Assembly: GCA_001664505.1 (NCBI GenBank)
Contig: CP011806.1
Location: forward strand, 2,518,904-2,582,903
Origin: Acidobacteria bacterium Mor1
GTDB lineage: Bacteria; Acidobacteriota; Polarisedimenticolia; Polarisedimenticolales; Polarisedimenticolaceae
Direction of reading: 5' to 3'
Length of the DNA: 64,000 bases
Shown here: in pieces, positions 58,718 through 59,401 of the stretch
Position numbering within the stretch: position 1 is the stretch's first letter
How the letters are laid out: each line of letters starts with the position of its first letter
The notes under the pieces: model-generated
Database searches by the model: none
Told to the model about the DNA's origin: nothing
Seen by the model: the letters and a program-made list of their open reading frames with translations, nothing else
Translations under genes and position numbers: made by a program

Positions 58718-58794
58718 GGCGGCGTAGCTCAGTTGGTTAGAGCGACGGACTCATAACCCGTAGGTCAGTGGTTCAAATCCACTCGCCGCTACCA
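58718..58794 (+). tRNA. tRNA-Met (anticodon CAT), with encoded CCA
   Basis: A 77-nt cloverleaf: acceptor GGCGGCG/CGCCGCT with G1-U72 wobble, D arm GCTC..GAGC, anticodon loop CTCATAA (CAT), T arm AGTGG TTCAAAT CCACT and 3' ACCA. The fifth anticodon-stem pair is A31-C39, a mismatch. Elongator tRNA-Met fits best. The lysidine-modified tRNA-Ile(CAT) is not excluded from the anticodon alone, and an initiator is unlikely because the anticodon stem lacks the three G-C pairs next to the loop. Confidence 0.9.
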
Positions 58795-58834: not shown

Positions 58835-59401
58835 ATGTCCTCCTGGATCCGCATGATCGGCAAGGACGAGGCCGACGGCCAACTCGCCGAGCTCTACGAC
58901 AAGATCGCCCCCGGCGACGAACTGGTGGACAACATCCTCGGCGTGCACTCCCTGCACCCCCAGTCCCTGGCCGACCACCTCCAGTTGTACAAGACGATCA
59001 TGTACGGCAAGAGCCCGCTCAGCCGGCGGGAACGAGAGATGGTGGCGGTGGCCGTCAGCGTGGCCAACGACTGCCACTACTGAACGATCCACCACGGGGC
59101 GGGGCTCCGTAAGATCACAAAAGACGCGGAACTGGTAGAACGGCTCGCCGCCGATCCCGACGGCATCGATGTCTCGCCTCGTGAGCGGGCGCTGCTGGAC
59201 TGGGCGCTCAAGGTCACCCGCACGCCGTGGGAGATGACCCGCGAGGACCTGCAGCCGCTGAAGGAGGTCGCCGGCCTCGACGACCGCGGCATCCTGGATC
59301 TGTCGCTGGTGACCGCCTACTTCGCCTTCGTCAATCGCCTCGCCGATTCACTGGGGGTCGAGGTCGAGCCCGGCGGTCCGCCCCACGCCACCCGGGACTG
59401 A
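58835..59401 (+). CDS. AhpD-like peroxidase-related selenoprotein (in-frame UGA = Sec)
   Basis: The frame opens at ATG 58835, meets TGA at 59081-59083, and continues in the same frame to a TGA at 59399-59401 (188 residues). Residues around the first TGA are ANDCHY-U-TIHHGAG: Cys80-x-x-Sec83, where CxxC is found in AhpD/carboxymuconolactone-decarboxylase-type enzymes, followed by the paired His of the family. Downstream, KITKDAELVERLAADPDGIDVSPRERALLDWALKVTRTPWEMT and DRGILDLSLVTAYFAFVNRLADSLGVEVEP are typical of peroxidase-related enzymes. A SECIS-like hairpin lies just after the TGA. The gene is likely a thiol peroxidase or oxidoreductase. Without recoding, an 82-residue fragment would end before the active site. 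Confidence 0.88.
59086..59116 (+). promoter_or_regulatory. Candidate bacterial SECIS element
   Basis: A lower stem GATC/GATC (59086-59089, 59113-59116) and an upper 6-bp stem (ACGGGG 59094-59099 with CTCCGT 59105-59110, one G-U) enclose the loop CGGGG. The loop begins 17 bases after the UGA and carries the G-rich apex recognised by SelB. This agrees with the known bacterial layout; the fold is drawn by hand. Confidence 0.7.

Follow-up and report, generated by a model that had tools for sequence, protein, structure and literature searches.

We conclude that the gene at positions 58835..59401 (forward strand) of the window, the whole 64,000-nucleotide stretch of the Acidobacteria bacterium Mor1 genome that was analysed, almost certainly encodes a TIGR01926-family thiol (selenol) oxidoreductase consisting of one domain of AhpD/CMD fold, with UGA codon 83 decoded as selenocysteine (Sec). 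The original prediction that the gene encodes an AhpD-like selenoprotein is favored by its reading frame, the match of the TGA to a cysteine, conservation on both sides of the TGA, a conserved hairpin and a complete set of Sec genes, each of which was observed computationally.

An AhpD-like gene with one in-frame TGA

The coding sequence of 188 residues begins with the ATG at 58835 and ends with the terminal TGA at 59399-59401, and the TGA at 59081..59083 (codon 83, forward strand) is the sole interruption of the frame. As originally predicted, this TGA closes the frame at 59081 and 105 sense codons then precede the terminal stop. Simple gene calling was expected to return an 82-residue fragment, and with translation table 11 the ORF at 58835 indeed has only 82 residues and the C-terminus ...NDCHY. 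Ordinary gene calling thus misses the active site along with most of the protein.

The read-through protein matches TIGR01926 (peroxidase-related enzyme) with 152.4 bits against a cut-off of 81.8, and the match spans the UGA (residues 3-179). It also matches PF02627 (CMD) with 49.3 bits. Membership in NF041238 (AhpD-related CFYUT) was rejected because the score of 55.1 bits (47.1 bits in the genome search) is far under the cut-off of 175 bits. The AhpD fold and CxxU are common to both, as reflected in the local match of 55 bits, but NF041238 is a longer family of 357 positions.

The TGA had been proposed to occupy the site of the second (C-terminal) active-site cysteine of the AhpD CxxC. When cysteine-containing homologues were aligned, the second CxxC cysteine of 3c1l, 2pfx and other solved structures fell at the TGA.

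Conservation past the TGA

Homologues came from three sources: a scan in which one genome stood for each species, a search for relatives and 297 genomes of the same phylum. The one-genome-per-species scan returned 36 relatives, and TGA stands at the site in every one of the 34 that span it. They come from Gemmatimonadota, Acidobacteriota, Planctomycetota, Fidelibacterota, Eiseniibacteriota, Chloroflexota, Calditrichota, Synergistota and other phyla. Overall, 103 homologous sites were read, in a sample tilted to Sec forms because the query is itself a Sec form: 79 are TGA (from at least eight phyla), 23 are Cys and one is Ser, and neither TAA nor TAG occurs at any of the 103.

Relative to the closest orthologues (L050 and L051), amino-acid identity is 66-72% before the TGA and 59-62% after it, and on either side it is the third codon positions that show the least conservation. 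The original prediction had named as evidence against itself homologues with a stop at the same place and no conservation after it. This pattern was looked for and not found; coding is conserved past the TGA.

A cysteine codon (TGC or TGT) is one substitution away from TGA and the table 11 ORF is truncated, as would be seen in a decaying AhpD-like pseudogene. However, the TGA lies at the same codon in 79 genes from many phyla, the downstream frame is conserved at the protein level, and both the Sec system and the hairpin (see below) are retained. We give the pseudogene reading a negligible chance, and rejected it together with sequencing error on the grounds of the shared TGA and the conservation that follows it.

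One genome of the phylum (G053; L113 / L067) has T-R-Y-C at the site, with a TGC codon. Here the first Cys is replaced by Thr and Sec by Cys, inside an otherwise-Sec clade, and neither selA nor SelB was detected in this genome. The form has the appearance of a switch made once the Sec system had been lost. More generally, we see about an even chance that Sec is the usual state of this TIGR01926 subfamily across at least eight phyla and that Cys forms arose later, for example after such losses. The Mor1 genome also carries a distant Cys-type AhpD-like paralogue (L116, C1:2409941-2410426) with the motif NDCDYC, which is 32% identical.

A SECIS-like hairpin directly downstream of the UGA

A hairpin starting at the third base past the TGA, with its loop 17 bases away, was part of the original prediction and is present at 59086..59116 (forward strand). 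The segment directly 3' of the TGA, CACGGGGCGGGGCTCCGT, folds into a stem from A14-U30 to C20-G24 (counting the T of the TGA as 1) closed by a GGG loop. The core stem comprises seven pairs, 14-20 with 24-30 (59094-59100 with 59104-59110), the loop lies at 59101-59103, and an outer helix joins 59086-59089 to 59113-59116. The SECIS-like element described in passages of the 2005 Sargasso Sea report is a hairpin immediately downstream of the UGA with a G in a small apical loop (PMC1088965), and the present hairpin has this form.

The predicted energy is -13 kcal/mol, which for this sequence alone is not unusual compared with dinucleotide shuffles (z = -0.91); the case for the hairpin therefore rests on a comparative test. 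Across the 79 TGA-form genes, a mean of 5.05 out of six core pairs are formed, compared with a mean of 3.68 and a maximum of 3.92 when synonymous codons were shuffled within the same gene (500 rounds). Sliding one strand by 1-4 bases lowers mean pairing in the TGA-form genes to at most 2.9. In the Cys homologues the mean is 2.52 core pairs, within reach of their own shuffles. The loop carries G at position 21 in 68 of the 79 TGA genes and at position 22 also in 68; at pair 17-27, 47 of these genes have G-C and nine have C-G. A formal covariation test on 28 of the sequences gives a weak signal, since there is so little variation in the stem. Thus, the hairpin is selected beyond coding need and is missing from the sampled Cys forms.

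The Sec-decoding system in the genome and in the phylum

The genome consists of one contig of 5.985 Mb and is 99.98% complete. In the RpoB tree it falls within Acidobacteriota with strong support, and its nearest neighbor is a Thermoanaerobaculia genome. The original prediction implied selA, selB, selC and selD elsewhere in the genome, and counted absence of selB and tRNA-Sec from the complete genome as evidence against a selenoprotein. All four were found: selA, selD, a tRNA-Sec with anticodon UCA and a full-length SelB of 621 amino acids with the SelB wing domain.

Two further genes of this genome contain an in-frame TGA. One is selD itself (L047, C1:2910488-2911429, reverse strand), with the active-site loop SCAGUASK, and the other encodes FdhA, the formate dehydrogenase alpha subunit (L149, C1:5055918-5057186, forward strand), with the TGA in CAATUHAPTVAGL. 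We take these to be the known Sec positions of their families, which makes them the second and third selenoproteins of the genome.

Among the 297 genomes of the phylum, 67 were flagged for an internal TGA, and SelB is present in 56 of these versus 111 of the other 230; these counts are approximate, since the flag may also be raised by a TGA at another position, for instance the terminal stop of the gene (in G053 the site itself is TGC), and fetched sequences were checked where possible. Of the 11 flagged genomes without SelB, eight carry selA in full length and a ninth carries part of it. The remaining two are G053, with Cys at the site, and a fragmented genome (G167) that yielded no selA and no SelB, probably owing to incomplete assembly. 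The latter holds two TGA-form copies of the gene (L114 and L115). Ten of the 15 genomes with stop-free matches only are without SelB, and in none of these ten does selA score above the cut-off.

Read-through by itself does not identify the inserted residue, and a near-cognate or suppressor tRNA could read the TGA as Trp, Cys or another residue. We consider this very improbable, given that a dedicated tRNA-Sec (UCA) is encoded together with SelA, SelB and SelD, and that SelB or SelA occurs in nearly all TGA-form genomes. Nor is genome-wide recoding indicated, as the neighboring genes are found with table 11. For decoding as Sec, the hairpin in the mRNA just past the UGA would be recognized by SelB with Sec-tRNA(Sec), and Sec would thereby be inserted at residue 83.

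Active site, predicted structure and possible reaction

The active-site residues of Mycobacterium tuberculosis AhpD are Glu118, Cys130, Cys133 and His137 (PMC3141380). The same spacing is found in E68 (codon at 59036-59038, forward strand), which corresponds to Glu118, and in C80, U83 and H87 of the motif C80-H-Y-U83-T-I-H-H87 (59072..59095, forward strand). Differences from the M. tuberculosis protein are that Sec replaces the second Cys and that Tyr82 stands at the position of His132. Glu at U-15, Cys at U-3 and His at U+4 are invariant in all 79 TGA forms.

A structure model computed from 26 aligned sequences predicts one compact helical AhpD-type domain that spans the TGA (mean pLDDT 88.9), and the closest solved structures are those from Deinococcus radiodurans (6k40) and Mesorhizobium loti (3c1l). 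The Cys-type peroxidase-related AhpD proteins (3c1l, 2pfx, 6k40, 2prr and 2oyo) have the same fold, length and active-site spacing at 29-35% identity, but have Cys where the present protein has Sec, and the sampled Cys genes are without the hairpin.

Based on this correspondence, C-x-x-U would constitute the redox motif, with U83 equivalent to Cys133 and its partner Cys80 to Cys130, while E68 and H87 could act as a proton relay. The U83 selenolate may attack and reduce a peroxide or similar electrophile, after which a Se-S bond to Cys80 would form and be re-reduced by a cellular dithiol donor. The peroxidase role, and with it this substrate and reductant, is inferred.

A selenoprotein with a different reaction, acting for instance as a reductive dehalogenase or thiol-disulfide adaptor, is possible, if on the unlikely side. 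The debrominase Bmp8 (6ohi, 6ohj) has a fold in common with the model (TM about 0.7), and in M. tuberculosis, AhpD serves AhpC as an adaptor (PMC3141380). Among the neighbors checked, no peroxiredoxin, ahpC-like or reductase partner gene that might fix the substrate is adjacent. Against a different reaction, the nearest sequences are named peroxidase-related, although family names do not test function, and the Glu/Cys/Sec/His spacing is as in AhpD. Peroxide reduction remains our preferred reading.

Relation to known AhpD-like selenoproteins

AhpD-like selenoproteins were originally noted as known from metagenomes, in agreement with the passages of two surveys that report 27 AhpD-like CXXU sequences from the Sargasso Sea in 2005 (PMC1088965) and, in the 2008 ocean survey (GOS), 299 "AhpD-like 1" and 70 "AhpD-like 2" selenoproteins (PMC2398784). 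In a passage of a review from 2026, the entry is "AhpD-like protein, TIGR01926, CxxU" with one Sec (PMC13188914). According to these passages, TIGR01926 CxxU has counted among the selenoprotein families from 2005 on, so we place less emphasis on the family itself; the sequence is a sound additional member of a known selenoprotein family and not a new kind. Compared with the AhpD-like selenoprotein (TIGR01926 / COG2128, CxxU) as described in those passages, it has the same one-Sec CxxU and the same SECIS-like hairpin directly downstream, and differs solely in its sequence and host lineage. The passages of the two reviews that were searched for Acidobacteria and Gemmatimonadota mention neither, and the present gene is unnamed in the literature passages. 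It adds a well-supported AhpD-like selenoprotein from an acidobacterial lineage whose Sec system is complete. Across Acidobacteriota and several other phyla the Sec form is widespread, and genes of this kind are readily overlooked there.

Genomic neighborhood

The selenoprotein gene is alone on its strand, and a scan for sigma-70 promoters and terminators found nothing. It is flanked by a tRNA-Met (CAT) just upstream (58718..58794, forward strand) and by an oppositely oriented DksA/TraR zinc-finger gene. The pairing of tRNA-Met (CAT) with the selenoprotein gene is kept in the two same-family genomes that carry L050 and L051.
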